From IMG/VR virus record IMGVR_UViG_3300029258_002326, positions 62,001-126,000 of that record: a DNA stretch of 64,000 bases; one strand, given 5' to 3'. The stretch's first letter is position 1, and each line of letters starts with the position of its first letter. The notes beneath the pieces are model-generated. The model saw only the letters and a list, made by a program, of their open reading frames with translations, was not told the DNA's origin and ran no database searches. This document shows positions 8,112 to 61,167 of this stretch, piece after piece. The stretch comes from a virus. A program made the translations under genes and the position numbers.

Positions 8112-8717
8112 ATGAAACTTCAAGAGATGGTCGAACAGTACATAGTAGAAGGTTCGGAATCGGAGGGTGTCATCAAGGCACTCAGGGACACGGACTACAA
8201 AGACTCGGACGCGTATTTCAAGATGGTCCAGCTTCTCAAGGGGCTCGCTGTAGCAAGCGCCGAGGATGAGAAGGCTGCTGCATTTTTGCGCAAGCTCAGT
8301 GATGCGCTGACGGATGTTGCCAAGAAGGTTCAAGGCAAGGCCGAAGAGTCAGCAGAAGATGGGTCGGGCGAGATTTTGGAGGTTAAGGAGTACGTCTATC
8401 CGAGGACCAGGAAGGACCTAGACGAAAAGACTCCTGCCAATTTCAAGAAAAGAGCCAAGCTGTTCAAGAGCGCGACCAAGCACGTCGAAGCTGCGATGAA
8501 TGATCTTGGGAGTATCCCTCGCTTGGATTTCTATGGCGATCTTGCTCATGTCTGGGGTCAGCTTCGCGATGTTTACTCTACTGATGGTGGAGAGGTCGGG
8601 ATGAAGGCCATGGTAGCTGGGTACGAGAAGGAAGCAAAAAATCCTCCGCTGGATCCATTCGCTGCCAACAAAGCTAAGGGCAAGGCGCTTGTAGACAAAA
8701 TGAAAAAAGCCCACTGA
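8112..8717 (+). CDS. Unknown 201-aa protein with internal-head-protein-like leader
   Basis: The N-terminus MKLQEMVEQYIVEG is a short amphipathic helix followed by IVE-G, an (L/I)-x-E site as used by T4-type prohead proteases. The rest is helical and charged (FKKRAKLFKSATKHVEAAMN) with no recognised domain. ATG 8112 is chosen because AAGGAG is ideally spaced; a TTG at 8088 would start inside the palindrome. First gene of the small-protein cluster after the tubes. The leader resembles those of ten other proteins in the window. Packaging in the head is an inference. Confidence 0.75.
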   Translation: MKLQEMVEQYIVEGSESEGVIKALRDTDYKDSDAYFKMVQLLKGLAVASAEDEKAAAFLRKLSDALTDVAKKVQGKAEESAEDGSGEILEVKEYVYPRTRKDLDEKTPANFKKRAKLFKSATKHVEAAMNDLGSIPRLDFYGDLAHVWGQLRDVYSTDGGEVGMKAMVAGYEKEAKNPPLDPFAANKAKGKALVDKMKKAH

Positions 8718-8735
8718 GGCACAAAGGGGTCATCC

Positions 8736-9047
8736 ATGAGAGATCTGATAGAGAAGATAACGAACAAGCACGCTCAGTCCGATGACATATCGGAAGAGAA
8801 GGTACGGGCCAAAGATGTGCGTGTAAGGGAAGACATGTACATTCGTTCGCATGGTAAGCCAAAGGGTGAAGGTCAGTGGATGTTTGGGTTCGGCCCAGGC
8901 GCAGGGAGCAGCAAGGACTACCTGGATTCTTCCAAGAGAGACAAAACTTGGTTTAGATCGCCTTTCGCGAGTTATGGGAAAGCCAAGACCATGGCTAAGA
9001 AACTAGCCGCAAGTCTTGGGTTTACGGAAATCACTACACTGCCCTGA
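8736..9047 (+). CDS. Unknown 103-aa protein with shared leader
   Basis: It begins MRDLIEKITNKHAQSDDISE, the [MR-x-L-I-E-x-I] leader followed by an I-S-E site near residue 20. The rest contains MYIRSHGKPKGEGQWMFGFG and a basic helix (YGKAKTMAKKLAASLGF). The C-terminal motif looks like a compact domain with conserved Trp/Phe positions, but I do not recognise it. AAGGGG precedes the ATG. It is 18 nt from the previous gene, so probably one operon. Confidence 0.75.
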   Translation: MRDLIEKITNKHAQSDDISEEKVRAKDVRVREDMYIRSHGKPKGEGQWMFGFGPGAGSSKDYLDSSKRDKTWFRSPFASYGKAKTMAKKLAASLGFTEITTLP

Positions 9048-9111
9048 TTTGCAAGCGCGGCCTGGCGATGTTCAGGGCTGGCGTCTTTACCGGATGAAAT
9101 GGATGTGAGTT

Positions 9112-10926
9112 ATGAAAGATACAAAAAAATCAATAATGGCAAACGAAGACGCTGGGCCTTGTGGGGTGGAAGAGGCCGCAAGCATGGTCAGCACGGGCGC
9201 ACGCAGGGCTGAGATTATAACCAGGACGCTTGAAGAAGGACTGGCCTTCCTTGATCGTCCTGGATTTGTGGACCGCATCGAAGAGGCCCAGGGCCAAGAG
9301 ATCCCTATCGACGAAGAATCGATGGAGAAAGTTGAGGACATCTTAGGGGCTGACGAATACAGTGAGAGTGAGGTAGCTGACGCTACGATAAGGCTCACGA
9401 AGGCTACTCTCTCGGCTCGTAATTTGTTGAAGCGAAGCGACTACAAAGAAATGTTCCCCCCAAAGGCCCGGAAGATAATAGAGCAAATATACAAGATAGG
9501 TAACGACGTTAATGACGCGGTAGGGTCAATGCGTAATATAGACAAAGCGGTTAAGGTTTTTGCCAAGGCGGTCGATGGCCTTAAGACGGAGTCGGTCGAG
9601 GGAGGATTGTGTATTTCCGAGGCGAAAGCTGCCAAGAAGCCAAAGGTTACTCTTAAGCCTCTCGATGCCAAAGCGGGCGATGACTACGAGAATGTTTTTC
9701 AAGCCGACGACGACAACGAGGAGCTTATACACGAAGCGCTCGCATCGACCTACAAGGCGTATTCTGCGGCTGAGGAGCTAATGAAGTCAGGCGACTATAA
9801 GAAGATGTTCCCTTCGAATGCTCGCTCAGCTTTGGACAAGGTGGTCAAGGCTTTGGACGATCTCTATAAGGGCCTCAAAGACTTTGACGGAATCCACCGG
9901 TTGGTTAGCGCTTTAGCCAAGGCGACCAACCAAGTGCAGCATGAATCAGTTGATGAGGAAAACCTCGAAGAGGCCGCGCTATTACCGAATGAGAAGAAAG
10001 CTGTCGCAGCGTATGCCAAGGCGTATGTTGCGGCTGAGAAGAGCAAAGAGGGCAAGATGTCCAGGGATGCTGTCAAGAAGACAGTTGCCGCCATTAAGAA
10101 AGCGCTAAACAAGGACATCGCAAAAGCTGGCTTTCCAAGTCTCTGGCATTTCAGCAAGTCGTCCGGCGACGGTCCCTTTGTTTTCCGGATCCTCTTTCAT
10201 GCTAACGAAAAGGATAAGGATCCACGCGGTCTCAAAGCGTGGTTGACGTTGAACGGGTTCGTCAATGTCTATCAAACGAACCTGGGCGACGGGGACTACG
10301 AGGTGGGCGCTGTTAAGAATTACGCCGACCGGAAGTTGGGCCTTGCGCTGAACAAGCATTTATTTCCAGAGGGAGATGCGTCCATTGCGAAGGGGTCTGG
10401 CCTGGGATCCGTCATTAATAGAATAAAGAAGGATTACTCTGGTGATCTTTCTGAGGCTGTGTCTAGACCAGAGGAGGCATCGAAGGCTTTCAGGCTAGGC
10501 AGGGAGGCTCGGTTCGGCGGGATGAAAAACACGCCGCTTCATGACGCAAGGTTGATGGGGATGCTGAGGATCCAAGAGGCTGACTGCGAAGTGGATGTCG
10601 TGAAGGAATGGCAGAGTGGGTGGCACAAGGAGAACGGAACAGTTCCACCCGTCTACCCTGATGAGATGCCGCCTGTTGAAAGATCATGGCTAAAAGAAGG
10701 CAAGGGATCGGTCCCGCCTGAAGTGGCGAAGGCGTGGAAGCCTCATCTTAGCCGTGTGAAGCAGAAGGTGAAAGACCATAACAACGGGTACTACTCGATG
10801 TCCGACAAGGAACTCATATCCGATATATGGGACACCGCGAAAGCGGCGGGCTGGAGAGTCGATGAGATCGTAGGTAACCCTCGTGGATCGATTATGGATG
10901 TGGTTGCAATCTGGAACAGTAATTAG
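9112..10926 (+). CDS. Unknown 604-aa protein with a duplicated helical domain
   Basis: A large hydrophilic protein with no membrane segment. Two copies of a roughly 75-aa helical domain are visible. The first is around residues 90-165 with SDYKEMFPPKARKIIEQI; the second is around 205-285 with GDYKKMFPSNARSALDKV. Each is followed by an acidic linker (ESVEGG, ESVDEEN). A C-terminal region (residues 500-604) holds WQSGWHKENGTVPPVYPDEM and WDTAKAAGWRVDEIVGNPRG. The repeated acidic junctions could be processing sites, but this is speculative. Start ATG 9112 follows GGATGTGAG; ATG 9136 is an alternative. Confidence 0.7.
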   Translation: MKDTKKSIMANEDAGPCGVEEAASMVSTGARRAEIITRTLEEGLAFLDRPGFVDRIEEAQGQEIPIDEESMEKVEDILGADEYSESEVADATIRLTKATLSARNLLKRSDYKEMFPPKARKIIEQIYKIGNDVNDAVGSMRNIDKAVKVFAKAVDGLKTESVEGGLCISEAKAAKKPKVTLKPLDAKAGDDYENVFQADDDNEELIHEALASTYKAYSAAEELMKSGDYKKMFPSNARSALDKVVKALDDLYKGLKDFDGIHRLVSALAKATNQVQHESVDEENLEEAALLPNEKKAVAAYAKAYVAAEKSKEGKMSRDAVKKTVAAIKKALNKDIAKAGFPSLWHFSKSSGDGPFVFRILFHANEKDKDPRGLKAWLTLNGFVNVYQTNLGDGDYEVGAVKNYADRKLGLALNKHLFPEGDASIAKGSGLGSVINRIKKDYSGDLSEAVSRPEEASKAFRLGREARFGGMKNTPLHDARLMGMLRIQEADCEVDVVKEWQSGWHKENGTVPPVYPDEMPPVERSWLKEGKGSVPPEVAKAWKPHLSRVKQKVKDHNNGYYSMSDKELISDIWDTAKAAGWRVDEIVGNPRGSIMDVVAIWNSN

Positions 10927-10988
10927 CGGAGTGTTACCGGTGAGCTTGTAAGCATCTCTTGCAAGTTGAAATCCCCAGGGAGGCGTCA

Positions 10989-11276: not shown

Positions 11277-11277
11277 T

Positions 11278-11712
11278 ATGCACGAGATAATCGAAAAACT
11301 CGAAGGTTTCGCGGGAGACCAGATTACAGAGCGTTCTCGTGGAGGCGCACGCAAGAAAGATCACGATACAATGATCGGGGCGATTCAGGATTCAGCCGAG
11401 GAGTGGTTTGCTCATGCTGTTAGGATGGTAGCAGCTGCTCTGCCTGGTATGTCCATGGTTAGAAAGGCGTCTGGGGATCTATCCTCTACGTCTGAGGTCA
11501 AGCTATACAAAGATGGTAAGGAGATGGTTCTTGACGCTACTGTGGAAGCAGAGCCGCTTGTAAAGCCTGGGGGCGTAGCAGGGACCAGGTTCACGTTCAC
11601 TCTTGAAGGTGAGAAGCCTAAATCCTTTGAGCTTTCTGCGATGGATTCCTACGACGAGGTCAGCGAAGGCATCGCTAAGTTCGTCAAGTCCAGAGGTTAC
11701 TCCACTAAGTAG
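11278..11712 (+). CDS. Unknown 144-aa protein with shared leader
   Basis: It begins MHEIIEKLEGFAGDQITERS, an amphipathic leader with an I-T-E site at residues 16-18. The remainder appears alpha/beta: a helix (AEEWFAHAVRMVAAALPG), strands (SEVKLYKDGKEMVLDATVE, TRFTFTLEG) and a C-terminal helix (VSEGIAKFVKSRGY). No family recognised. GGAGGAG precedes the ATG, one base after the holin-like gene's stop. Confidence 0.7.
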   Translation: MHEIIEKLEGFAGDQITERSRGGARKKDHDTMIGAIQDSAEEWFAHAVRMVAAALPGMSMVRKASGDLSSTSEVKLYKDGKEMVLDATVEAEPLVKPGGVAGTRFTFTLEGEKPKSFELSAMDSYDEVSEGIAKFVKSRGYSTK

Positions 11713-11795: not shown

Positions 11796-12119
11796 ATGAG
11801 AGATATAGTCGAGAGGATAAACGAGCTTCGAGCGCAGGATTCGGATCTCATGGAGAAGGACGACAGTGGCGATCCGCAGGACAAGGCATACGAGATGATT
11901 CAGTCGTATGGCATGGTTGAGAAGACGCTCGGCAAGAAGGTCTCTTTGTTGATGAATAGATTTGAGGATGCCAAGAAGGGAACCGCTCAACTCAAGAAGT
12001 CTGGGGCACATTATCAGACGGCTTCAGAGTATGTGAAAAAGTACCTTCTTCCAGATGCTAAGAAGCTGCAAGACTTCGTGAACGGTGTCGTTAAGGAGCT
12101 GGAAAAGGCGGCGAAGTAA
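11796..12119 (+). CDS. Unknown helical 107-aa protein with shared leader
   Basis: The leader MRDIVERINELRAQDSDLME has an L-M-E site at residues 18-20. The remainder is predicted helical (AYEMIQSYGMVEKTLGKKV, MNRFEDAKKGTAQLKKSG, DAKKLQDFVNGVVKELEKA). No catalytic motif is visible. CACGGAG precedes the ATG. Like its neighbours, it could be a packaged internal protein; that rests on the leader alone. Confidence 0.7.
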   Translation: MRDIVERINELRAQDSDLMEKDDSGDPQDKAYEMIQSYGMVEKTLGKKVSLLMNRFEDAKKGTAQLKKSGAHYQTASEYVKKYLLPDAKKLQDFVNGVVKELEKAAK

Positions 12120-12644: not shown

Positions 12645-13585
12645 TGATAAAGCGTGACGAGCTAAACGAGGCTATAAGATACAACGCTCGAAAGGCTGGT
12701 GATCTGTACGACGTAGCTGCTCTTCCTTGGCCATGGTCATGGGAGGGCTCTGCTTCGGGTTTTGCGTGGGCTGTTGCGCTATTTCAGAGTGAGAACAAGT
12801 TGACTATCGATGGCAAGCTGGGCAAGGGCACGCTGGCCAAGATCAAAGAGGTTCGAAAAGAGAGAGACAACACTCCTCTTGAGAAGCCGACGATTATGCA
12901 GCCATGGAAGTCCAACTGTGTTGTTGTGGACGGCGCGAGGATCCAGATCCCGGATGTGCTTATCGACGCGGGGTTTTCTGCGGCGAATTATCTGGACGAC
13001 GGAGAGCCTCGTTTCAACCGTCGAAACAGAAGGTCTCCGCTTCGGCATTTTGTGTTGCATGAGACGGCGGGGACAACGGCTGAGGGGTGCAAGAGAACGT
13101 TGCTGGCAAAGAAGTACGGAGTTCAGTTGATTCTCGCGCCAAGCGGGGACTTGAGCTGTCACGGAGATCTCGTGAGAGATGTAATGACTCATGGTAACCA
13201 GCTGAACAAGACATCGATTGGTATTGAGGTAGTGAATCCGTATAGCCCTAAGTATTCTAAGCCACCGTGGGGGCCGGATGATGAGATCCCGGCTCAGTGG
13301 TGGACATGGTGTCCAAAAGGCGCACCTAAGCGATATGTGAAGCCGACAGAGGAACAGCTGGTAGTCATTCGAATTCTTGTGCCCTGGTTGTGCAATGTGC
13401 TATCCATTCCATACGTATTCCCGACTGCTGATCTGGGGCCTGGCAAGAGAAAGATCAAGGGCTGGAACGTCAAGCCTCGTGCTGTTCCTGCCTCTGGGGT
13501 GGTTTGCCACAGGGATTATTCAAGCCACGCCGATGGCCGATACATGCTAGAGGACTTGATCGATAGAGCGGGAAAAGGACTGTGA
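12644..13585 (+). CDS. Endolysin: peptidoglycan-binding domain plus amidase_2 (N-acetylmuramoyl-L-alanine amidase)
   Basis: A cell-wall amidase that cuts the bond between MurNAc and L-Ala to release progeny. Residues about 40-70 form a PG_binding_1-like domain (VALFQSENKLTIDGKLGKGT). Residues about 130-310 form the zinc amidase (T7 lysozyme/PGRP fold): HFVLHETAG (H139), SIGIEVVNPY, and CHRDYSSHADGRYM (H289, with D297 as likely third ligand). No signal peptide is visible, so it would rely on a holin, and a holin-like gene lies upstream. ATG 12644 is chosen (TGATG coupling); GTG 12641 is just in front. Confidence 0.88.
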   Translation: MIKRDELNEAIRYNARKAGDLYDVAALPWPWSWEGSASGFAWAVALFQSENKLTIDGKLGKGTLAKIKEVRKERDNTPLEKPTIMQPWKSNCVVVDGARIQIPDVLIDAGFSAANYLDDGEPRFNRRNRRSPLRHFVLHETAGTTAEGCKRTLLAKKYGVQLILAPSGDLSCHGDLVRDVMTHGNQLNKTSIGIEVVNPYSPKYSKPPWGPDDEIPAQWWTWCPKGAPKRYVKPTEEQLVVIRILVPWLCNVLSIPYVFPTADLGPGKRKIKGWNVKPRAVPASGVVCHRDYSSHADGRYMLEDLIDRAGKGL

Positions 13586-13908
13586 TGAAAGATTTAGCGT
13601 CGAAGCTCAACGAATTCATAGAGGTTCCAGAGGGGCAAGCTCGCCTTACCAAGCTGGAAGAGCGTCTTTATCGCTCGCTAAGGACACAGGGAGAGAGGGC
13701 CACAAAGGGTCGCTCTATCTCCAGGTGCGTGTTCGAGTCGCACCCTGGAGAGGAGGGTGCCCGACTGGTTATGATCATGGAGGGCAGGTACTCGGTATCC
13801 GTGGGTAACCAGATAGTCCGGAGATTCGCTGGGATGCCAGAAGTGGGCTCGGTGATTGTCAAGCGAACGGATGCCGGAGCCAAGGTTGTTTTGAGGCTTG
13901 TCGGCTAG
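13585..13908 (+). CDS. Unknown 107-aa protein with leader-like N-terminus
   Basis: It starts at an ATG (13585) overlapping the endolysin stop. The N-terminus MKDLASKLNEFIEVPEGQAR is amphipathic with FIE/VPE sites near residues 11-16, a weaker match to the shared leader. The rest is beta-rich (ISRCVFESHPGEEGARLVMI, YSVSVGNQIVRRFAGMP, GSVIVKRTDAGAKVVLRLVG). No family recognised. Confidence 0.65.
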   Translation: MKDLASKLNEFIEVPEGQARLTKLEERLYRSLRTQGERATKGRSISRCVFESHPGEEGARLVMIMEGRYSVSVGNQIVRRFAGMPEVGSVIVKRTDAGAKVVLRLVG

Positions 13909-43836: not shown

Positions 43837-43845
43837 GGAGCCAAG

Positions 43846-44949: not shown

Positions 44950-44998
44950 TGACCGTCAAGACAGCCTTGCCTGGAAGATTAAACATTAGTATTTCATT

Positions 44999-45027: not shown

Positions 45028-45052
45028 GAATTGAGCAAATCAGGAGGAAAAG

Positions 45053-45622: not shown

Positions 45623-45706
45623 TCCTCGCGAGCGCCAAATGCCTTTGCATCGAGTCTTAGTCTGATAGAATCAAATACTGGCTTGCAGCGCAGTAGTTCA
45701 TATTGT

Positions 45707-45735
45707 TTGTTAATCATGCTTTTGTTGAGTAGGAT
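45707..45735 (+). promoter_or_regulatory. Weak candidate promoter upstream of the 45826 gene
   Basis: TTGTTA (45707-45712), 17-nt spacer, TAGGAT (45730-45735). Each box matches consensus at four of six bases. Confidence 0.3.
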
Positions 45736-45743
45736 ATGAGGAA

Positions 45744-45768
45744 AGAAAACGATCCAGGTCGTTTTTCT
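45744..45768. terminator. Weak hairpin with T-rich arm
   Basis: AGAAAACGA pairs with TCGTTTTTCT (one bulged T) around loop TCCAGG. The arm is T-rich, but the stem is A/T-dominated and no separate T-run follows, so termination would be weak. Confidence 0.25.
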
Positions 45769-45797
45769 GGTGTCGGCGCCAAGGCAGATTAAATCTC

Positions 45798-45813
45798 GCG
45801 AACTTGAGTTCGC
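45798..45813. repeat. Dispersed palindrome, copy 7
   Basis: GCGAACTTGAGTTCGC. The core ends 14 nt before ATG 45826, with TGGAG between. Confidence 0.9.
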
Positions 45814-45825
45814 AATGGAGCGAAA

Positions 45826-48636
45826 ATGTCATCTAGCGATCCAGGTGGTTACGGCTTCTTTGGGAAAGGCTACTGGGGGCGACGGATATTCTGGGGGAAT
45901 GTCCCTACGCAGCAAAAAGCCCTGGATGTAGATGGGTGGATGGAAAGGTTCCTCAAGGTTCTCGGTGACGAAGGGGAAAGTTTCCTGAATCAAATCGCTG
46001 CCTTGCCGTCTCAGAGAGATCCTTATCAGGTGATAGCGGAAGAAGGCGTGGAGGAATGGTTCTATTTCACGAGCGCTCTTTCGTATGAGGATGACTACTG
46101 GGGTAAAGTTGTTCGTCTGGTTGGCGAGCCTGATTATACCCAGATGCCAGAGACAGACGAAGAGGATCCCCCGTCGGCGACCCAGTCGGTCCTTGATGAG
46201 TGGTATCCGTGGTTTCCTTATGCTCCTATTTCCTCGATTGCGCGGTGGTGGTGGTGTCGATGGCACGGTGTTACCGACGATGGGGTAGCCGGGGAAGATG
46301 CAAGGTACGAAGTAGTCAAGGTCAGGACGAGGAACTTCGATTGGCCGGGGCAGTACATCTCTGGTTCTTCCCTTGGGAATGAGGTCTGGATAAAGAGCGA
46401 CGATCTCTATATTCCGTTTGAATGGGAAGACGTGGTGATCGGAGAGGGTGACAACTCTCAAGAGCCTAGCGTGGTTTTGCCGTTCAAGCCTCTGCGCCTT
46501 GCGTACAATGACACCGATTCTCCAACTCCTTGGCTCGTTGCCAACGCGAAGGTGAACATAAACGTGTCGATTTCCTCGTCTATCGTGCCTCTTTATGATG
46601 TCCCGAATGTTCCGTGGGACGGCTCCGGGAACATGTATCCGGCTTCCGGGACGGACATCGTTACGGCCACCTCATACGGAACTGTCAACTACGAGACTGG
46701 AGAGATTGTGATGGCTCTCCCGACGAACGCTGATGCGGACGTCGATATTACGAGTAAATTCACGGTGCGCGGGTATTACCTATCCATGCAGCGCCCTCGG
46801 ATAATTGACCATCTTGCTCGTGACTTCGGGTTCGAGAACGACCGGAACGACCCAGAGGATGTTCAGAGATCTACGATTGCCAATATTTCGAAGTATTTTG
46901 GGTTAAAAGCGTCTCAGGATTCGTACAGGATCAGAGGTGAGATAAGCCTGTTCGACGTGTTTGTGCGGTCGCTGTGGAGGATTTGCGATTCTTCTTTTTG
47001 GGCGTCTATACCCGTTCAGAATGCGTTCATGTATCACGGGACCATGTACACGGACATCGAGCCTAAGTATCTGCGTTTTGACGACATCGCCGCCGATGAA
47101 GAACTTTACGATCCGGACACGTCGTCATGGGTCACGTTAGTGGACAACGCGATTGTGCACTTGGACGATTCCACGGACGGGTATTCGGTCGGGCTGGCGT
47201 ACGCTCTCGACGTAGCGCAGGGGTATTATGCCAACGTGGCCGATACTCCTCATCCGCTGTCTGCTATTCCGAGAGATCCGGCAGGTGCTGTATCCGTGAC
47301 CGCCCTCACTAATGAACAGCTCCTGTCTTACGGTTTGCAGGCCGGGTATTTCGTAGAGATTCGTATGATGCGTTGCCAGGCAGAGAACTGGAGTTGGGTG
47401 AAGGGCAAGTTTGGTATCACAGAATACCAGAAGGCCGCCAGCGTTCCACCAGCTTACGGGGACGATATATTCTGGATTGATAGTGTGCTGAGTGCATGGT
47501 CCGACCCGACTTCTCCTGCGACGCCATCGGACGACGACGTTGGGTCGATGACTGTTGTCATTGGAGTTGGAACGGATTCCTCTGGGGTAGCCGTCGATGG
47601 TCCCGTCGTAGGTCACGCGGACATCGTGTCTGTTGTTGCGGCATCGGCTACGGTTAAGATTTCGGGGGATCATACGGCTACTGTCTCCGCTGGCGATTCC
47701 ATTGGTATCATTCGGTCGACGGCCAATGACACCGATTACACGGTCATCTCTGCGACTCTCAACGGGGTGAACACAGACCTCGTTGTATCTCCTGGGCCTG
47801 CGGCTGACTCTGGAGCCGACGGAGAGGTTCATTGGACGGATATTGCTATCCGGTATGTGCCTGAATTGGATCTTGAGAATTGTTGTTTCTGCTTGTCTTA
47901 CAAGCGGCGCGTGGAGATCACCCCGACTGCTGAGGCTTACGAGCATTACGGATCTGGGGTCAGCATGGACGCGGCGGTGGGTCGCCTTCGGCGCAAGATT
48001 GTAGCGACCCTGGCTCCCATTCATACTCGTGTAGTGGACTGGGCTGTCTCGAAAGAATGGACGCTTGAGAACGTGGATACCGGAGCGACGATAGAAGAGA
48101 CTCTGGCGTCTGAATTCCTTTCGGACGATCTTTCTGGGGTTACCGCTGCCAGCACAGTCACGAATACGTTTACGATCACTGGCGACAGGACGAAGGATCT
48201 GGCGGCTGGCGAGACGATTACCATCGTTGACTCGACGGCCAACGACGGTGACTACGTGATAGACACCGTGGTCCTAAATGCCAACGAGGAAGACACCGAT
48301 GTGGGTGTAACGACGGCTGTTCCCAGTGCCGTTGGAGACGGGTCTTTGCGGCCCATGCCTACCAAGATACTGATGAAGGTTGAGCAGCGCGGAGACATGA
48401 GTTTGTCTCAGACTCAGACGTTCAATCTTTACGATGAATCAGCATCGGTGGTTTGGACTTCTACGGACACGACAGGGGTTAGCGATGCAACCACTTGGTA
48501 CACTGTGACTGAAAATGAAGATGTAACTTCGGACATTGGTAACAATGCCAATGTAAAAATAGAGGCAATTGCAGCAGCAGGCATCACTTACGGTGATGTC
48601 CGTTTCACTTTTACTGTATCCCGCTATCAGAGGTAA
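45826..48636 (+). CDS. Baseplate protein of tail protein I / gp7-like type
   Basis: A 936-aa protein. The N-terminus is Gly/aromatic-rich (GGYGFFGKGYWGRRIFWGNV). Around residues 327-385, IIDHLARDFGFENDRNDPED, VQRSTIANISKYFGLKASQD then GEISLFDVFVRSLWRICDS resembles the wedge-core helix pattern of tail protein I (P2 gpI) and gp7-like proteins. Residues about 255-310 carry the GTVNYETGEIVMALP version of the beta module seen in the sheath. Two later beta domains share STANDTDYTVISATLNGVNT and STANDGDYVIDTVVLNANEE. Probably a wedge protein linking the baseplate to fibres. Confidence 0.7.
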   Translation: MSSSDPGGYGFFGKGYWGRRIFWGNVPTQQKALDVDGWMERFLKVLGDEGESFLNQIAALPSQRDPYQVIAEEGVEEWFYFTSALSYEDDYWGKVVRLVGEPDYTQMPETDEEDPPSATQSVLDEWYPWFPYAPISSIARWWWCRWHGVTDDGVAGEDARYEVVKVRTRNFDWPGQYISGSSLGNEVWIKSDDLYIPFEWEDVVIGEGDNSQEPSVVLPFKPLRLAYNDTDSPTPWLVANAKVNINVSISSSIVPLYDVPNVPWDGSGNMYPASGTDIVTATSYGTVNYETGEIVMALPTNADADVDITSKFTVRGYYLSMQRPRIIDHLARDFGFENDRNDPEDVQRSTIANISKYFGLKASQDSYRIRGEISLFDVFVRSLWRICDSSFWASIPVQNAFMYHGTMYTDIEPKYLRFDDIAADEELYDPDTSSWVTLVDNAIVHLDDSTDGYSVGLAYALDVAQGYYANVADTPHPLSAIPRDPAGAVSVTALTNEQLLSYGLQAGYFVEIRMMRCQAENWSWVKGKFGITEYQKAASVPPAYGDDIFWIDSVLSAWSDPTSPATPSDDDVGSMTVVIGVGTDSSGVAVDGPVVGHADIVSVVAASATVKISGDHTATVSAGDSIGIIRSTANDTDYTVISATLNGVNTDLVVSPGPAADSGADGEVHWTDIAIRYVPELDLENCCFCLSYKRRVEITPTAEAYEHYGSGVSMDAAVGRLRRKIVATLAPIHTRVVDWAVSKEWTLENVDTGATIEETLASEFLSDDLSGVTAASTVTNTFTITGDRTKDLAAGETITIVDSTANDGDYVIDTVVLNANEEDTDVGVTTAVPSAVGDGSLRPMPTKILMKVEQRGDMSLSQTQTFNLYDESASVVWTSTDTTGVSDATTWYTVTENEDVTSDIGNNANVKIEAIAAAGITYGDVRFTFTVSRYQR

Positions 48637-48638
48637 AA

Positions 48639-51296
48639 ATGACTGTATATGGAACCACTGTCAGTCCCGACAAAGTAAAACTTAAATATCGAGAGCGGTA
48701 TGTGACAGAGGGTGAGAACGAGCGATCCTTGGCTTATCCGTCTGGGTGTTATCGTGGGTTCATTCCGGAGGACTCAACCGTTCCGGATATGAAGATCCAT
48801 CTAAACATCGACCCTTTGAGCTTCGAGTATGACACGGATTCGTTTGCTGTCTTTAACCGGTATAATGAGTCCGGAGAGGGCTGGTCCCTTTCCATCAGGG
48901 AGTCCACGGACATTTATATTGAGCTGTCCGGGACGGCGTTTGATCCGATTCCTGCGGGCGTAACCTATCTGTACGTGTACATGTATGCGGATTACGCGGT
49001 GGGTCAGACGACCGATGTTGAGTACAGGGTCTCCGACGAGGATCCTCACAATGCAGTCAGTTCCAATTACGATGTCGATACTATTGTGATTGGCCGGATA
49101 CCGGTTACTCCTGCGGCTACTTCAATCAGTTTTGACATTTCTAATGCTTCAACCTGGGTGGACGTCCTTACTCCTCGGACCTATCCCGCTCCAACTGCGG
49201 CGGAATTATTGACGGATCTCGGGGCAGGCGACAAGCTCTGGGGTTACTACGACTCCCTGAGCGCATGGCGGACCCCTACTGTGGACGAGAAGAAGGCCAT
49301 GGTGAATGCGAATTCTCCGGATGCTGCTAATCCGTTTGCGACAATGGACGACACGAACAGGATGTACACAGCGGAGTGGACAGCCTATGACGTGACTATT
49401 GATCCGACAGCCAGCGTTGACGGCAAACAGAAGATTGCCCTGTCTGGAGACTGGTACATCGGAGATGGCGCACGAGCTAGTGATGCAGCTCGGTATTTTA
49501 AGGTGTACTCCAAGGATTCAACGGTCATGGGATACGATGCTTCGTTTGCATTGGACTACGGCGGCGTTAGGCCGATCAGGGTATGGGATACCGCTGGCAC
49601 GACGGCATTGACTCCGTCGTCTGCTAGCGATACGGAGGGTTTTTATACGGATCCTCAACTCCAGCTCTATATGGATACCGAGCAGGTTCTCACGCAGGAA
49701 TTCACGATTGCTGGGTACAAGAAAAAACAGCAGGGGACAATGGAACAGGCACCAGTGAGTCCTGCTGAGTACCCGTCTGCTAATGCTCAGAATGTCAGTG
49801 TTAAGCGCTTGTCTTCTCCTCCTCTCTGGGGAGAGACTTCAACGGCTTTGGATGATGAGCGGAATGGTCTTCAGGATGTAGTGCATGATCTCCACAGGCG
49901 TCTAAGAGGCCCGGTTGCCAGATCTTTGTCTGCAACCAATTTGAACATGGCGCTGCATAAGATCTCCTCTACTGTATTTCATGAGCAGGGTGCGGCTGAT
50001 GCTCATCCGTTTGCTATAGAGAACACGTTTCCGTATTTTGGGATTCCATTTGCCGATATTGGGGCCAATAAGTATGCTGTTCGCAAAATTGCACCGTGGC
50101 GTCTTGGAGGCATAGGGGCGAAGGTTATTGTTGTGGGTCTAGATAATGCTTATCCGGCCACAGGGGGGCCTGCTGTAGGGTTCGTTGATCCTTCCACTGG
50201 GGAAACAACTGTGACCAGGCTTGAGTCATTTCTCCCGGCCAGTGACGGAACAAAATGGGTGTTCCAGGATCTGTGCGTAGATGACAATGCCATATACATT
50301 AGAGTCGCAGACGACTCAGTGACCGGCAACAACAGGCTTCTGAAGCTACTGTACGGTTTAACAGTAGATTCTGCCTGGCCTACGAATGGCGTATTGCTGG
50401 GCGCTTTCGACGCCGGGACCGTGGCGGGATTTGGTTCGTTAATTCCTAAGCGTGCCAATGTTATAAACGCCAATCTTAATTACTTGGCTGCCAACGATCA
50501 AACGACAGAGGTTAACGGGGCGGCCTCAAACGTTGGCGGTGTTTATGTGATCCGCAAGTCGGACGGAGTGATAATAGGCAACGGCACAGGGGATCTTGTG
50601 ACCTCTGGGACAAGCCCGATTCCCGCACTCAACTCGTCCTACTGTTCGGGGCCTATTGCCTCTGATGGCTCCAATATATATTTTAGCTGCGTAAAAGAGA
50701 CTGGTGGCGGTGGCATTGCTGGAATCAACATTGGTGTCTGTCAGATTGCCAATCCTCATCTTCCTCCCTCTCTCATTACTGGGTGGTATTCCTGGTATTA
50801 CGCAGATGGTCAACCTCCAGTTAATGCAATAGATTTGGTGTTTGACGGATATTATATTTGGGGGTTTGCCGGTAGCACTGTCACTGGCTCGCTTGATGGC
50901 GGTGTCACTCAATCAGGGTTTACAACTAATGGTGAAGTCGACGTGGTCGATATGACTGGCTTTGATGAGCAGTTTGGCCCGGCTTGTTTTGATGGCAAGG
51001 ACATCTGGCATATCACGACCGATCCGGCAAAGGGCACTGTAGCCTGTAATCGCCTTTCTGTTCGGGGCGGTGTCCAGGATATAGCGAATTTTACTTCTAC
51101 GTATGCGGACCTCCTGAAAGAGACCATAGGGATATGCGATCCTTTGCAGGAGCCGAATGTCGCAGCGGATGATCTCGCAGTTGGGGCAATAGCTTTTGAC
51201 GGCGAGGATGTCTGGTACACGCTGGATGGATATGCAGCCGGAACCGGCACTATGGCTGGGTGGATATTCCGTATTCCAAATGTGAAAAACATTTAG
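48639..51296 (+). CDS. Large unknown baseplate/fibre-associated protein
   Basis: An 885-aa beta-rich protein that follows the wedge gene by 2 nt. Early residues include CYRGFIPEDSTVPDMKIHLN and YLYVYMYADYAVGQTTDVEY. A middle helical part reads DERNGLQDVVHDLHRRLRGP. The C-terminal half has repeated strands with tryptophans (GWYSWYYADGQPPVNAIDLV, FDGKDIWHITTDPAKG, FDGEDVWYTLDGYAAGTG) suggestive of propeller- or lectin-like blades. No family recognised. Context suggests a peripheral baseplate protein. Confidence 0.7.
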   Translation: MTVYGTTVSPDKVKLKYRERYVTEGENERSLAYPSGCYRGFIPEDSTVPDMKIHLNIDPLSFEYDTDSFAVFNRYNESGEGWSLSIRESTDIYIELSGTAFDPIPAGVTYLYVYMYADYAVGQTTDVEYRVSDEDPHNAVSSNYDVDTIVIGRIPVTPAATSISFDISNASTWVDVLTPRTYPAPTAAELLTDLGAGDKLWGYYDSLSAWRTPTVDEKKAMVNANSPDAANPFATMDDTNRMYTAEWTAYDVTIDPTASVDGKQKIALSGDWYIGDGARASDAARYFKVYSKDSTVMGYDASFALDYGGVRPIRVWDTAGTTALTPSSASDTEGFYTDPQLQLYMDTEQVLTQEFTIAGYKKKQQGTMEQAPVSPAEYPSANAQNVSVKRLSSPPLWGETSTALDDERNGLQDVVHDLHRRLRGPVARSLSATNLNMALHKISSTVFHEQGAADAHPFAIENTFPYFGIPFADIGANKYAVRKIAPWRLGGIGAKVIVVGLDNAYPATGGPAVGFVDPSTGETTVTRLESFLPASDGTKWVFQDLCVDDNAIYIRVADDSVTGNNRLLKLLYGLTVDSAWPTNGVLLGAFDAGTVAGFGSLIPKRANVINANLNYLAANDQTTEVNGAASNVGGVYVIRKSDGVIIGNGTGDLVTSGTSPIPALNSSYCSGPIASDGSNIYFSCVKETGGGGIAGINIGVCQIANPHLPPSLITGWYSWYYADGQPPVNAIDLVFDGYYIWGFAGSTVTGSLDGGVTQSGFTTNGEVDVVDMTGFDEQFGPACFDGKDIWHITTDPAKGTVACNRLSVRGGVQDIANFTSTYADLLKETIGICDPLQEPNVAADDLAVGAIAFDGEDVWYTLDGYAAGTGTMAGWIFRIPNVKNI

Positions 51297-51305
51297 GAGG
51301 CTTCC

Positions 51306-51836
51306 ATGGGCATTGTTGTGAAAAAAAGAAAAAAGAAAACGATCAATCCTGTTGATCATCGGGGTAACGCTAAAAAAATGATGGAGAGAGTGGGGAAGGT
51401 GTTGTTAGCAGTGTCTCGGAATAATGAATCTGACAGGAATGTCGCGTCCAGCCTGGCTAATCGTGCGAGATCTACATCAGAGGCTCTTCAGGCTGTCCTG
51501 GATAACGATCCTGCGCTGAAATCGGAGAGCCCTGAGTTCTTTGCAGAGATAGAGGGTGCTATCTCTGCCTTGGACAGTGTGCATTCTGATCTGACAGCAG
51601 AGATCGATAGTTTTCCGGCTTCTCCCACGTACAAGAGAGAAGCCTTTGACGAGGTTATCTCGGATGGATCTACCTGTCTGGGCAATACAGATTTTGTGTT
51701 ACCAGAGGGTGCGACCATGATGGTGCCTAATCGCAATCTAGGCATCAATGATGTTCGGGTTGTTACGGATGAGCATCGGAGCGCTGGTGCCAAGGTTAGG
51801 GCGATCATAGGCAAGTACATCTCAGAAGAGGAGTAG
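51306..51836 (+). CDS. Unknown 176-aa protein
   Basis: A basic start (GIVVKKRKKKTINPVDHRGN) is followed by a helical region (RARSTSEALQAVLDNDPALK, FFAEIEGAISALDSVHSDLT) and a mixed C-terminus (GATMMVPNRNLGINDVRVVT). TAGGAGG precedes the ATG. It lies within the baseplate operon; no motif allows a role to be given. Confidence 0.65.
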   Translation: MGIVVKKRKKKTINPVDHRGNAKKMMERVGKVLLAVSRNNESDRNVASSLANRARSTSEALQAVLDNDPALKSESPEFFAEIEGAISALDSVHSDLTAEIDSFPASPTYKREAFDEVISDGSTCLGNTDFVLPEGATMMVPNRNLGINDVRVVTDEHRSAGAKVRAIIGKYISEEE

Positions 51837-51838
51837 TC

Positions 51839-52624
51839 ATGGCCCTTGGAGTCATCGGATCAATAGTTGAGTCGATCATGTATGGTCCGGAAGGATCCGA
51901 TTACAAGGCTGCGTCTATGCTTGGGATCAACCCTAAGACAGGCAAGCCTCTTGGAGATCTCGGAGAGCACACCTTTCAGTATTGGCCGGAGACGGTCACG
52001 GACACGATTGATGTGGGCTGGAACTGGAAGGATATACCAGGTGCATCTTCGGCCCTGGCCCAGTGGTCTGGGAACTCGGGCCGAACGATTGCTTTCGAGG
52101 TTCATCTTCACAGGCTAATGAAGCCCGTTAAGACTCGTAACTTCTTTGAGACTGTGCTCGATCCGTTCAAGTTAAACCGGCCTGAGAACGACATTATAAA
52201 GACCAACCGTCCACACAATGTGGATGTGGTTCAAGAGATCAAGTGGCTCCGTGCGTTTTGCTATCCATGTTATGCGGACGTCGACTCTTACAGGACTGCA
52301 TATCCTCCGCCTGTCGCTATTTTGTCTATGCCCAAAATGGGATTAGGGGACGCCACAGGCGGGAACGCAATTTACTGCATTATGACAGGTTGCGACGTCA
52401 ATTATCAATTGTGCTTTCCGGATGGAACACCCCGCAAGGCGTCCGTATCGCTGACATTTAGGCAGATTCATCAGGATCCAATTGACAAGGTTGTGTATGC
52501 TGTTGGCCATGCCTTGGACGACAACACAAAGGTTCGATACGCATTTCAAAACCCCAATAGCGACAATGTGAACAAGGGCGGCAAGCGCCCCCTTAACAAG
52601 ATCAAGGGCGGGGGGGCGTTGTAA
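51839..52624 (+). CDS. Tube-initiator/baseplate-cap-like protein (CIS tube-type)
   Basis: A 261-aa protein. FQYWPETVTDTIDVGWNWKD, IPGASSALAQWSGNSGRTIA and FEVHLHRLM in the first half recall adaptor proteins at the top of contractile baseplates (Afp7-like CIS tube domain or gp48/gp54-like). The second half ends GCDVNYQLCFPDGTPRKASV then LTFRQIHQ, again as in those proteins. GAGGAG precedes the ATG. The match is by pattern only. It closes the baseplate gene set. Confidence 0.6.
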   Translation: MALGVIGSIVESIMYGPEGSDYKAASMLGINPKTGKPLGDLGEHTFQYWPETVTDTIDVGWNWKDIPGASSALAQWSGNSGRTIAFEVHLHRLMKPVKTRNFFETVLDPFKLNRPENDIIKTNRPHNVDVVQEIKWLRAFCYPCYADVDSYRTAYPPPVAILSMPKMGLGDATGGNAIYCIMTGCDVNYQLCFPDGTPRKASVSLTFRQIHQDPIDKVVYAVGHALDDNTKVRYAFQNPNSDNVNKGGKRPLNKIKGGGAL

Positions 52625-52899
52625 TGGCGATGAAGGCTGTAGAATGCACTGCTGATAGCAGAGAAGAGCCCGTTGCTCGACCGGTCCAGAAGCCTGCTCC
52701 GGCGAGCAGAGAGCCGTCTACCGCTGGCAGTGTCCAGGCAGAGAACATGGACGAGCTTGTGATGATGCTCGTTCCGAGGGTAACGTTCAATGCGATGGAA
52801 GATCTTGCAAAGAAGCATGGCGGGTCCGTTGCTCAAGTCATGAGCGTCGCTTTGAAATTGTTGCAATTGAAGTCCGAGGAGGCAGAAAATGGCGCTTGA
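52624..52899 (+). CDS. Small unknown protein with RHH-like C-terminus
   Basis: A 91-aa protein starting at a TAATG overlap. A disordered Pro/Ala/Ser-rich N-terminus (PVARPVQKPAPASREPSTAG) leads to a short domain, MLVPRVTFNAMEDLAKKHGG then SVAQVMSVALKLLQLKSEEA. Strand-helix-helix spacing hints at a ribbon-helix-helix fold, with low certainty. Confidence 0.6.
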   Translation: MAMKAVECTADSREEPVARPVQKPAPASREPSTAGSVQAENMDELVMMLVPRVTFNAMEDLAKKHGGSVAQVMSVALKLLQLKSEEAENGA

Positions 52900-53119
52900 G
52901 GCAGGGGACGCTTTATTGGGGACTGGTCTTGCTGGCGCCATAGCTGCTGCTCGCAAAGAGGCGTGGGGGAAGAGTTACAGGGTGGAGAAGGATGCTCCGG
53001 CTCTGAACAAAGAGGCGGCGGCGATCATAGACTACATAGTGGCTAACGCAGAGGTATCCGTGACGGAAGCTCCGGGTGGTTCTGCTCTGGTTCCGCCTGG
53101 AATAGGAGTGATCACGTGA
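52889..53119 (+). CDS. Small unknown virion-region protein
   Basis: A 76-aa protein overlapping the previous gene by 11 nt, with GAGGAGG upstream. It begins MALEAGDALLGTGLAGAIAA, then AARKEAWGKS and KEAAAIIDYIVANAEVSVTE, and ends PGGSALVPPGIGVIT. The gly-rich start is mildly hydrophobic. Small proteins of this pattern occur next to phage baseplate genes. No function known. Confidence 0.65.
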   Translation: MALEAGDALLGTGLAGAIAAARKEAWGKSYRVEKDAPALNKEAAAIIDYIVANAEVSVTEAPGGSALVPPGIGVIT

Positions 53120-53736: not shown

Positions 53737-54459
53737 ATGCGTGAGTTGATCGAGAGATATATACAGCTTCATGAATCTGTCATTCCTTCTTGGGTCAAAA
53801 AAGCTGCCAAGTCCAAGGTTGTCGAGGGGCCGAACGGCAACAAAGCCATCGCGTACGAGTGGAAGTGGATGTGGGATGAGGTTTGGAGCAAGAAAGAGGA
53901 TGGTCTTGTTTCTAAGAAAGTGAGTGATTGGGACAATGCGATGAATTGTGCGTCGTGCCGTCGCAGGATTGTGCATGTATATTGGGTTGAGACGAAAGAG
54001 GGAGATATTCTTCCTTACGGCGGGGATCACCTGCATATGATTCTTGGGTATCCTCGTGAGCTTAAGAAGTCACAGCTTGACAAGATCAAGGCCAAGATTA
54101 CTACCGAGCGGGCATTGAAGAAGAAAAAAGAAGATGATGAGTACAGGAAGTCGAACTATGAGGCTTGGGTCAAAGCCCTTAGTGTATCCTGCGCTCACGG
54201 TGGTGCCTCTGCTATACGTGATGCGATTATGAAGTTTAACGATTTCTATGCAAACAGGCCCAAGCCTCGCTGGATGAGCGATCTGAACGATTCATCCAGA
54301 AATGTTGTGTGGCTTTTTAACAAGAGAAAGAAGCTACTAATGCGCGGAGACACTTTGGATGTTGATGGCTTTTTGTCTTTTTCTCCAGGTTGGAAGGTGG
54401 AGAACCCAAACAAAATCAGGGCTTTCCTGGACAAGGACATTGTTGATGGTGGGCAATAA
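53737..54459 (+). CDS. Unknown 240-aa protein with shared leader and Cys/His motif
   Basis: The leader MRELIERYIQLHESVIPSW has an L-H-E site at residues 11-13. A Trp-rich part follows (YEWKWMWDEVWSKKEDG), then MNCASCRRRIVHVYWVETKE and GDHLHMILG, whose cysteines and histidines could bind zinc. A long charged helix (KKSQLDKIKAKITTERALKK) precedes the C-terminus. GAGAGG gives the start. No known family. With its neighbours it may be an internal head protein. Confidence 0.72.
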   Translation: MRELIERYIQLHESVIPSWVKKAAKSKVVEGPNGNKAIAYEWKWMWDEVWSKKEDGLVSKKVSDWDNAMNCASCRRRIVHVYWVETKEGDILPYGGDHLHMILGYPRELKKSQLDKIKAKITTERALKKKKEDDEYRKSNYEAWVKALSVSCAHGGASAIRDAIMKFNDFYANRPKPRWMSDLNDSSRNVVWLFNKRKKLLMRGDTLDVDGFLSFSPGWKVENPNKIRAFLDKDIVDGGQ

Positions 54460-54460
54460 G

Positions 54461-55258
54461 ATGCCAAAATGGATAGCCGGTAAAGATGGCGAAGTCACAT
54501 GGGAGAAGGCCAAGAAGATCGTTAAGGACGAGTACGGTGATTCTCTGGAGAAATCCGACCCGGACAAGTTTTACGCGGTCGTCACGTCAATTTATAAGAA
54601 AATCTGTAGCAGCGAAAAGCACACATGCGGAATCGCAGGGAAGACAGAGAGCACTCATATGAAGAACTTGATCGAGCAAATTGAAGGGATTGTCTCTGGG
54701 ATTGAGGCGTCTGAGTTGTCCGAGTCTAAAGAGGGCAATAACGGTGTTTCGTTTTTCGCCAAAGGCATCCTTCCCGACGGTTCCAAATGGGCCGGTGGCA
54801 AACCTAAGATTCGTCTCGGTTATGAGGGGGAAGTCCTCGTTACCAAGAAGCGATTCAAGGGCGGCAAGGCGACCTTCGTGATTACTCTTCGTCCGGGTCG
54901 TGGAGGCGGCGGAGGGGCCACTGTAGAGGCTGCTGCATCCAACCATTACTTCAACCTTGCAGGTACGGACAAGCCCGCCATAGACGGCCTGCGGAAGGCT
55001 TTCTCTTCGGCTGCGAAGAAGGCCATGCGTAGCATTGGATCCCAGGCCGACAAGTGGCTATCCAAGAAAGACAATTGGGTGTGGCGAGTAGTCGGTTGGG
55101 ATGAGAGAAACGATTGGACCGTGAAGGATGTCAACATCTCCGGGATTAAGCTCGGGGATGCTATCGTAGACCCAACCCGGCGCAAATGGCCATCGGGACG
55201 GACAGAGATCTGGATACCCGTGGAGATTTCCGTCACTGCTGATATGGAGAAAAAGTAA
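54461..55258 (+). CDS. Two-part unknown protein with an internal copy of the shared leader
   Basis: A 265-aa protein. Residues 1-66 form a small domain (EVTWEKAKKIVKDEYGDSLE, KFYAVVTSIYKKICSSEKHT) of a pattern common in phage proteins ('W.KAK..V...YG....~Y~~V~.IYKK'). At residue 67 a perfect leader begins (MKNLIEQIEGIVSGIEASEL, then an L-S-E site). It is followed by a beta domain (KWAGGKPKIRLGYEGEVLVT, ATFVITLRPGRGGGGGATVE). Either ATG 54659 is a second internal start, or a small gene has fused to a leader-bearing gene. ATG 54461 lies 1 nt after the previous stop. Confidence 0.68.
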   Translation: MPKWIAGKDGEVTWEKAKKIVKDEYGDSLEKSDPDKFYAVVTSIYKKICSSEKHTCGIAGKTESTHMKNLIEQIEGIVSGIEASELSESKEGNNGVSFFAKGILPDGSKWAGGKPKIRLGYEGEVLVTKKRFKGGKATFVITLRPGRGGGGGATVEAAASNHYFNLAGTDKPAIDGLRKAFSSAAKKAMRSIGSQADKWLSKKDNWVWRVVGWDERNDWTVKDVNISGIKLGDAIVDPTRRKWPSGRTEIWIPVEISVTADMEKK

Positions 55259-55531
55259 ATGACCACCATTCAAGAAATGATCGAGAAGCGAAACCTCGAA
55301 GAGTTCTCTTCGGCGGAAGAGGTCGGCAAGAAGCAGGCTAAAGCATTTCTCAAGGCTATCGAGAAGCAGACGGGCTGGGTTGAGACCCAGGTAGGGATTT
55401 TCAAGAAAAAAGAACGTTTTGGTCTAACTTCCGAAGAGAACAAGCGCATTATCATGGCGCTCTCTAGGATAGAGGATGAGTTCGAGCATATTATCGATGA
55501 GATCGAGGGTGTTTTGATAGGGGATGTTTAG
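55259..55531 (+). CDS. Unknown 90-aa protein with shared leader (MTTIQEMIE type)
   Basis: It begins MTTIQEMIEKRNLEEFSSAE, with an L-E-E site at residues 13-15. The first eight residues MTTIQEMI are identical to those of the gene at 55592, although the rest differs. The body is helical (KQAKAFLKAIEKQTGWVETQ, RIIMALSRIEDEFEHIIDEI). It starts directly after the preceding stop. Confidence 0.7.
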   Translation: MTTIQEMIEKRNLEEFSSAEEVGKKQAKAFLKAIEKQTGWVETQVGIFKKKERFGLTSEENKRIIMALSRIEDEFEHIIDEIEGVLIGDV

Positions 55532-55591
55532 TCGTAGCCAGGCCCAGGTTGTTGTCAGGGTAATAGTTGCTATCAATCGGAGAACAAAAAA

Positions 55592-55897
55592 ATGACCACA
55601 ATTCAAGAAATGATCGACCGAATGAAAATCGAAAAGTCCGCCGAGGAGCAAAAACCCGAGGCTGACAAAGGGGAACTCGAAGAGGTAACCTCTAACAAGG
55701 CAGCTGGTTTTGCTGCAAACAACTGGACTGCGTCCATCAAGTTGGCACGCCAGCTTGCGGCGACCTACAAAGGCATTAAGGGTAGCTTTGGCAAATCCGA
55801 GATGTCCGACAAGCACAAGAAGGAAATCGAGCAATGCTACGCGGACGCACAAAAGTGCCTCAAGCGAGCAGCTGTCATCTTTAACGACTACTCATAG
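55592..55897 (+). CDS. Unknown 101-aa protein with shared leader (MTTIQEMID type)
   Basis: It begins MTTIQEMIDRMKIEKSAEEQ, then KPEADKGELEEVTSNKAAGF. The leader matches its upstream neighbour, but the body (NNWTASIKLARQLAATYKGI, KEIEQCYADAQKCLKRAAVI) is unrelated. This supports the leader as a portable tag. A CGGAG site lies before the ATG. No known fold. Confidence 0.7.
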   Translation: MTTIQEMIDRMKIEKSAEEQKPEADKGELEEVTSNKAAGFAANNWTASIKLARQLAATYKGIKGSFGKSEMSDKHKKEIEQCYADAQKCLKRAAVIFNDYS

Positions 55898-55916
55898 ACG
55901 CCGGGTGGTGACTGCG

Positions 55917-56183
55917 ATGAGGAAGCTGATCGAAAAAATCGAGATGCTTATAGAAGGCACGCAGACTTGGACTGTGACACCCAAGAAGGTCAGGAAAATT
56001 GACAACTACGGGAGGGTGAAACGTGCGTTTGCTGATAGTGTTGGAGGAGACAGGATTTATGACCACCCTACTAAAAGGGGGAAGTTTATCGTGTCTGGTG
56101 ATGAGGCGGGTCTTGAGTATGCGCGGGCGCGTTGCAATGCCAGTGGTTATCGCTTCGACTATGACGTAACTGGGATAATGTAA
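55917..56183 (+). CDS. Unknown 88-aa protein with shared leader
   Basis: The leader MRKLIEKIEMLIEGTQTWTV has an L-I-E/G site at residues 11-14, almost the same as in the 8112 protein (IVE/G). The body is basic and beta/alpha (KVRKIDNYGRVKRAFADSVG, GKFIVSGDEAGLEYARARCN). It could bind nucleic acid; unproven. Confidence 0.7.
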   Translation: MRKLIEKIEMLIEGTQTWTVTPKKVRKIDNYGRVKRAFADSVGGDRIYDHPTKRGKFIVSGDEAGLEYARARCNASGYRFDYDVTGIM

Positions 56184-60469: not shown

Positions 60470-60494
60470 CCTTTGAAAAATCCTGCCTTAACCG

Positions 60495-60523
60495 AGGGGA
60501 GCGGCTATCTAGTCGACTCCCCT
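60495..60523 (+). terminator. Stem-loop after the 59972 gene, possible terminator
   Basis: AGGGGAG pairs with CTCCCCT, with an inner CGGCT/AGTCG stem (one G-T pair) and loop ATCT. Only three T follow the stem, so termination may be partial. It lies in the 90-nt gap after 60469. Confidence 0.45.
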
Positions 60524-60559
60524 TTGGTCGTAGAGAGACCCAAAAAAGAGGAGGGTGCA

Positions 60560-60754
60560 ATGAGTCAAGGTTGTCCGAAGTGTAAATCCAGCAAGACCAA
60601 GGGGGTTCACAGCCCCAATTCCCCAGGGGATCTTTTCATTGAGTGCGAGGCGTGCGGATGCGTGACGCCGGTTCCAAGTCGGAAACAACGCATTGCCAAT
60701 GAGTCCGCTGAGGCGGCTGAGGCGGCTGCTGCGCCGGGCGTAATCTGCGGGTAA
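60560..60754 (+). CDS. Small zinc-ribbon protein
   Basis: A 64-aa protein: MSQGCPKCKSSKTKGVHSPN, then FIECEACGCVTPVP. The two C-x2-C pairs form a zinc ribbon. The tail is Ala/Glu-rich (ANESAEAAEAAAAPGVICG). ATG 60560 is preceded by AGAGGAGGG; an upstream TTG at 60473 lacks a site and would read through the hairpin. Probably nucleic-acid binding; unproven. Confidence 0.7.
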   Translation: MSQGCPKCKSSKTKGVHSPNSPGDLFIECEACGCVTPVPSRKQRIANESAEAAEAAAAPGVICG

Positions 60755-60816
60755 TCCATCCTTCTGCCTCGCCTTTTATTTTTGCTTGCAAGCCCGTGTG
60801 ATGTAATATGGGATTC

Positions 60817-61167
60817 ATGAGGGCACTGATAGAGGCAAAAATGATTGAAGCTGAATCAATACCTGCAATGCAGGAAGTTGAGAGTTCCAACGTCCATTCG
60901 GTGGGGTACGACTATCTAAAAGGGATCCTGTACATCCGATATTGGAAGGATTCCACAACTCGCCGATCTCAGGTCTCGGGGAATATCTACAAGTACTTCG
61001 ATGTCCCGTTTTTGGTCTACCACCACATGATCAACGCCAGAAGCAAGGGTAAGTTCATGTGGGCTCAGATACGCGATCAGTATCGGTACAAAATGATCGG
61101 TCGCACTGGTTGGCGAAAAAGGCAGCCTAAGAGGGCAAAAAAGAAGCCAGCAAAGAGGAAACGGTAG
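60817..61167 (+). CDS. KTSC-domain protein with shared leader
   Basis: A 116-aa protein. The leader MRALIEAKMIEAESIPAMQE fits the tag seen on ten other proteins, with an M-I-E/A site. Residues about 25-90 are a KTSC-type domain (SNVHSVGYDYLKGILYIRYW, IYKYFDVPFLVYHHMINARS, KGKFMWAQIRDQYRYKMIG). The tail is strongly basic (KRQPKRAKKKPAKRKR). KTSC domains occur in single-strand nucleic-acid-associated proteins. ATG 60817 is preferred (GGGA 5 nt upstream) over 60808. The stop TAG abuts palindrome copy 12. Confidence 0.75.
   Translation: MRALIEAKMIEAESIPAMQEVESSNVHSVGYDYLKGILYIRYWKDSTTRRSQVSGNIYKYFDVPFLVYHHMINARSKGKFMWAQIRDQYRYKMIGRTGWRKRQPKRAKKKPAKRKR

Follow-up and report, generated by a model that had tools for sequence, protein, structure and literature searches.

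The 64,000-nucleotide stretch of DNA analysed here (the window) is taken from an IMG/VR record of an uncultured virus (IMGVR_UViG_3300029258_002326, 157,265 bases, hereafter G000), of which it covers positions 62001-126000. It encodes eleven proteins that open with a short shared leader, which an earlier note had likened to the capsid-targeting signals of phage T4. Judging from its genes, G000 is an uncultured myophage of the T4 superfamily; the window opens with the region of the tail sheath and tube, and a T4-superfamily head module, including a Gp20 portal, a gp21-like S77 protease-scaffold, and a Gp23 capsid protein, is located upstream of it. All eleven starts belong to open reading frames, with the N-termini given in the earlier note. 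These genes and two associated features are listed below in window positions, a slash marking the putative cleavage point.

8112-8717, plus strand: leader protein 1 (201 residues), leader MKLQEMVEQYIVE/G at 8112-8150.
8736-9047, plus strand: leader protein 2 (103 residues), leader MRDLIEKITNKHAQSDDISE/E at 8736-8795.
9112-10926, plus strand: 604-residue protein without leader, inside island 1 (see below), with nine [LIMF]-x-E-[AGSD] sites where 2.8 are expected.
11278-11712, plus strand: leader protein 3 (144 residues), leader MHEIIEKLEGFAGDQITE/R at 11278-11331.
11796-12119, plus strand: leader protein 4 (107 residues), leader MRDIVERINELRAQDSDLME/K at 11796-11855.
13585-13908, plus strand: leader protein 5 (107 residues), weaker leader MKDLASKLNEFIE at 13585-13623.
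53737-54459, plus strand: leader protein 6 (240 residues), leader MRELIERYIQLHE/S at 53737-53775.
54461-54658, plus strand: MPKWI domain, upstream of leader protein 7 and in frame with it; a gene of its own in the relative G016 (36199).
54659-55258, plus strand: leader protein 7 (199 residues), internal start, leader MKNLIEQIEGIVSGIEASELSE/S at 54659-54724.
55259-55531, plus strand: leader protein 8 (90 residues), leader MTTIQEMIEKRNLEE/F at 55259-55303.
55592-55897, plus strand: leader protein 9 (101 residues), leader MTTIQEMIDRMKIEK, without a strict L/I-x-E at residues 11-20.
55917-56183, plus strand: leader protein 10 (88 residues), leader MRKLIEKIEMLIE/G at 55917-55955.
60817-61167, plus strand: leader protein 11 (116 residues), leader MRALIEAKMIE/A at 60817-60849, KTSC domain from residue 22.

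Family searches bore out the claim that the bodies behind these leaders are unrelated, the KTSC domain of 60817 being the only significant Pfam match among the eleven, and the predicted structures of two bodies gave no significant match in the PDB. The internal start at 54659 was likewise upheld, as its orthologs (G016:38253 and G015:152304) align with it from its first residues onward, carry PLME/G sites, and are separate from the MPKWI domain in G016. In the predicted structure of this protein, residues 1-19 have a predicted local distance difference test score (pLDDT) below 50 and most of the body a score of about 90, so that the model depicts a disordered leader and a folded body, and for 8736 a leader helix is predicted at residues 3-13, followed by a low-confidence stretch at 12-21. 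Orthologs of leader protein 5 (13585) occur in most relatives, with a poorly conserved cleavage site.

The relatives were obtained by searches with the tail tube and amidase, which yielded about 15 related IMG/VR contigs. One record, IMGVR 3300018080_000128, was excluded as independent evidence because it is essentially the same phage as G000 (99.99%). No cultured relative of G000 was found by DNA match or with the tail-tube protein, and the best matches of its capsid protein are all below 40% identity. Leader statistics were based on a family set of 11 records, G000 and ten relatives, some of which are close to one another (e.g., G017 and G022), so that their independence is incomplete; five more distant T4-like contigs (G005, G006, G007, G008, and G011) served as controls.

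A scan of all of G000 for the strict core M[KRH]x[LI][IV]E turned up nine ATG starts, every one of them on the coding strand and seven already in the earlier note; the opposite strand had none. Candidate leader genes outside the window, for which that note had proposed to search, were identified at G000:23793 and G000:154334, with further ones in relatives; the product at G000:23793 is, by eye, presumably HAD-like. Gene-caller starts combined with loose regular expressions were uninformative for G000 (7 matches, 5.4 expected), and the gene caller missed some true starts; the counts used here were instead made start by start, with a tight core. In G000 alone, the core was present at 7 of 369 starts with a good Shine-Dalgarno sequence versus 2 of 779 without (Fisher p=0.006), a modest result, and relatives were therefore needed to decide. 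In the eleven family records, the tight core occurred at 94 of 3244 good starts (2.9%; 1.7-4.9% per record) versus 34 of 8013 weak starts (0.42%; p=1e-25), and it was not detected at any of 551 starts in the five control contigs; the evidence for the leader is thus strong only once relatives are included. The core peptide is kept more than its codons (0.39 identical codons versus 0.51 in the bodies), and the leader helix is amphipathic, with a hydrophobic moment of 0.507 versus 0.354 for shuffles. About 10-25 candidate leader genes are found per long record, and the tag sequences of this lineage include MRELIERYIQLHES and MRSLIRQLEEA. A MutY-like match behind the core (G018:163871) was not counted as cargo, since it is probably a natural N-terminus.

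Cleavage by the T4 protease takes place after L/I-x-E (PMC9026906). The earlier note had placed such a site, with its E at residues 11-20, in most of the eleven leaders, which holds for seven of them (3.1 expected on shuffling, p=0.01) and fails for 13585, 54659, 55592, and 60817; the first of these has F-I-E at residue 13 and the second LSE at residue 22, and the last two are without a strict site. A broader comparison used 88 leaders picked on the core only, blind to any site, with the next 20 residues as the site window. A downstream [LIMF]-x-E was present in 54 of the 88 (same-residue shuffles: mean 26.6, maximum 40) and was followed by A, G, S, or D in 36 (mean 9.2, maximum 20). The enrichment persisted with G000 left out, at 47 of 80 leaders versus 24.0 for the site and 33 of 80 versus 8.3 for the site with its following residue. 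Alanine occupies the position after the cut (P1') in 26% of sites, versus 9% in the background. The same motif recurs in the head proteins: [LF]-x-E/D is invariant in the capsid protein of 12 records, at the position of the maturation site of relatives and T4, and the protease N-terminus in the family carries LIE/[AST] or LLTE/T. The LHE of the 53737 leader is also the LHE at the capsid-protein site of some relatives.

A gp21-like prohead protease, whose absence from the genome the earlier note would have taken as refutation, is encoded by G000 as an S77 protease-scaffold fusion (G000:40069-41829; Peptidase_S77, PF03420, E=1e-12; PHROG 207, E=5e-38) with a coiled-coil scaffold part. Pairwise BLASTP comparison with T4 gp21 gave E=9e-12, the alignment spanning the PQ[VL]LIE pro-segment through the GEL[DN]HP and GVSSRG motifs, both of which are kept. 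For the protease, the most likely start is MPQVLIE (40213), which lines up with MNEPQLLIE of T4 gp21. Of 13 related records, ten gave a match to the S77 protease and the remaining three are short. The capsid protein of G000 matched Gp23 (E=1e-69).

The leader genes are grouped into islands that keep their positions, with contents that change even between close relatives. Island 1 is flanked by the tail-tube genes and the amidase, and downstream of the tail tube in six relatives leaders open most genes (MTMRTLIERFERIME/A, MRHLIERVERIME/A, MATMRTLVKDMRALVE/G, MKRLLESLGTFLDE/A, and MTTMRRLSGLLTE/A among them). Island 2 follows a tail protein and precedes the 56202-type gene, a place common to window 53737-56183, G016:35606-39382, and G018 at about 43000-53000. 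Homologous bodies are seen with different leaders or without any. The two body segments of leader protein 1 (8112) occur under different leaders in relatives, and the 8736 body, which is conserved in G001 and can still be recognised in G015 and G018, there follows different leaders ending in VIGE/A, QLDE/A, and RLEE/A. The KTSC protein bears the leader in G000 (60817), G015, and G016 and none in G017. Tad6, which Pfam describes as an inhibitor of type I Thoeris, occurs untagged in G015 and G001, and in G016:193860 the C-terminal half of the domain (profile 66-145) comes after a leader. When 131 candidate tagged proteins were searched against Pfam, PHROGs, and NCBIfam, few families were hit and almost every one of these a single time; unrelated families such as KTSC, Tad6, and DUF3175 are among them. 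At the level of sequence, the tag, its islands, the protease, the enrichment of sites, and the modularity of the bodies are directly observed.

A second leader type, ILxEMLxxAGVxPxxIL, was noticed on several unrelated bodies (G000:44129; L097:5032-5669; G016:187584 and 187909), and the homolog of the G000:44129 body in G019 bears the standard type. The protease-scaffold ends in MSEMQRLAGLE and the capsid protein begins with ARELFEQAG, both of which may be compared with this second type. The 604-residue protein of island 1 has an internal repeat with the segment 'DYK.MFP..AR'. In a genome-wide scan for excess [LIMF]xE[AGSD] sites, the top three proteins of more than 400 residues were the head-module protein G000:46217, the protease-scaffold, and this protein, which has the third highest z-score and may be a protease-cut cargo polyprotein.

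These observations suggest that the leaders are quite probably capsid-targeting tags of the T4 kind, removed by the prohead protease. Upon late expression, the amphipathic N-terminal helix, with its core M-[KR]-x-[LI]-[IVL]-E, would dock unrelated proteins onto the prohead scaffold, and the gp21-like protease would cleave behind the E of [L/I/M/F]-x-E, in most cases with A, G, or S as the next residue, so that the mature body is set free within the capsid. Such bodies would then be packaged with the DNA and probably injected at infection; our confidence falls in the order docking, cutting, packaging, injection, and action in the host. Since the tag persists as bodies come and go in the islands, which have fixed places among the late genes, these islands may serve as a reservoir of accessory proteins for injection, with counter-defence proteins probably among them. 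The turnover of the bodies fits counter-defence, and an effector role of the tagged proteins is suggested with the help of the Tad6-like body in G016. The likeness to a T4-type tag put forward in the earlier note is supported by the enriched sites, the fixed islands with swapped contents, the domains found both tagged and untagged, and the conservation of peptide rather than codons.

Several observations weigh against this interpretation. About 40% of the leaders have no clear site downstream of the core, the number of residues before the site varies among leaders from 10 to 27, and the P1' residue is D at the family capsid site and preferably A, G, or S in the leaders. Beyond register and motif, no homology to the T4 sequence MKTYQEFIAEA is recognisable, the leaders appearing too short and diverged for descent to be traced. 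The statistics of G000 taken alone are modest, as described above, and some core matches may be coincidental, such as G000:23793 and the MutY-like G018:163871.

Among other explanations, the leader could be a docking helix for another part of the virion (tail tube or baseplate) or for an assembly complex, with structural or chaperone-like proteins behind it. The position of island 1 between tail-tube genes and amidase, and of island 2 after a tail protein, would agree with this, but a late-cluster neighbourhood is equally expected of head cargo, a prohead-protease site just past the core would not be expected, and the bodies turn over freely between close relatives, unlike structural parts; this explanation is considered improbable. 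Slightly less credence is given to an intracellular localisation or oligomerisation helix acting after synthesis in the infected cell, with no packaging role, which would account for the amphipathic character and for the leaders from which a cleavage site is missing, but leaves unexplained the [LIMF]xE/A/G/S enrichment, the T4-like register, and the same motif in capsid protein and protease. Very unlikely is descent of the genes, as diverged paralogs, from a single ancestor of which only the N-terminus was retained, with no targeting role: the leader regions of 55259 and 55592 have a 39-base-pair repeat in common (90% DNA identity), as such an origin would predict, but the bodies match unrelated families, relatives have KTSC and Tad6 proteins without the tag, and homologous bodies stand under different leaders. 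Equally unlikely is chance, compositional bias, or a DNA-level translation-initiation signal, since, common as charged helix-forming N-termini are and constrained as initiation regions at phage gene starts may be, the core is 7-fold enriched at good family starts and missing from all 551 starts of the control contigs, and a DNA-level source is disfavoured by synonymous codons that vary above background.

Determining which proteins a phage injects is difficult, the more so when the phage is uncultured. Should the tag of G000 and its relatives be a targeting signal, the injected set would be marked directly in the sequence, in a lineage for which no cultured member was found, and about a hundred candidate injected proteins, almost all of unassigned function, would become testable gene by gene. 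The lineage would then also use the T4 packaging trick far more extensively than T4 does, in islands organised around the turnover of cargo. Slightly more probable than not is a lineage-wide system in which one processable tag would load 10-25 cargo proteins and a protease-cut polyprotein per head, the tag would be exchanged between bodies in recombining islands, and the counter-defence proteins injected in the first minute could be catalogued from N-termini. The principle is already known from T4; the scale, tag sequence, island organisation, and lineage are new within the literature searched, as no paper describing this tagged cargo system was found in the open-access literature (subscription papers and preprints lay outside the search).

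Other features of the genome were also noticed. The 525-residue tail-tube-like protein (window 6462-8039) contains an insert at about residues 145-478 that is missing in relatives (196 residues in G001), resembles part of another G001 protein, and looks like an intein. Upstream of the window (G000:28684-38071), a terminase open reading frame of 2179 residues has large intein-like insertions, and the portal has an intein splicing domain and HNH-like matches. An 84-residue protein almost wholly composed of P-S-I/L-P repeats (window 24125-24379) lies among genes of the tail/baseplate region, and three tandem, paralog-like proteins of 360-367 residues occupy window 41641-44949. Proteins that we take, by eye, to be TnpB-like, together with an IS200-like transposase, are found at window 61685-62866 and G000:126635-128322.

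Among known systems, the Dar proteins of phage P1 are head-associated counter-defence proteins (PMC9024508, PMC12810830) and constitute a functional parallel only. The giant phages SPN3US and phiKZ (PMC5694885) also carry ejection proteins in the head, processed after x-x-E by a gp21-like protease, but their propeptides are mostly far longer (several of more than 100 residues) and the motif is A/S/G-x-E, in contrast to the 10-27 residues and L/I/M/F-x-E observed here. The most similar system is that of the T4 internal proteins IPI, IPII, and IPIII (Mullaney and Black 1996, reviewed in PMC9026906 and PMC3012670), which have a short amphipathic N-terminal tag, unrelated bodies, and an L/I-x-E/A site, with a gp21-family protease and a gp23-family capsid protein in the same genome. 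In the T4 tag, targeting depends on residues 4 and 7 and processing on residues 8 and 10 (PMC9026906), and about 20 leaders of this lineage are in the exact register of ipII and ipIII (e.g., MRSLIRQLEE/A compared with MKTYQEFIAE/A). The ITE/A of T4 ipI lies at residue 19, as in the longer leaders here, and the N-terminus of T4 gp67 is MEGLIEAI. In the distant T4-like contig G008 (L115-L123), several proteins begin with MKTFKEFL, MRSFTEFLEE, or MKSFLEYLKE, resembling the T4 tag itself. The internal proteins of T-even phages are diverse defence proteins with only the tag in common (PMC3012670); those of T4 are injected, IPI blocking a restriction enzyme and IPIII being required with one particular strain of E. 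coli (PMC3012670, PMC9391042). In the present lineage, packaging of the cargo is predicted from sequence. The two systems also differ in that T4 has three internal proteins plus Alt, compared with about 10-25 candidates per long record here, where the tag is M[KR]xLIE..., the distance to the site is variable, a second tag type exists, and the leader genes cluster in late islands adjoining tail genes.

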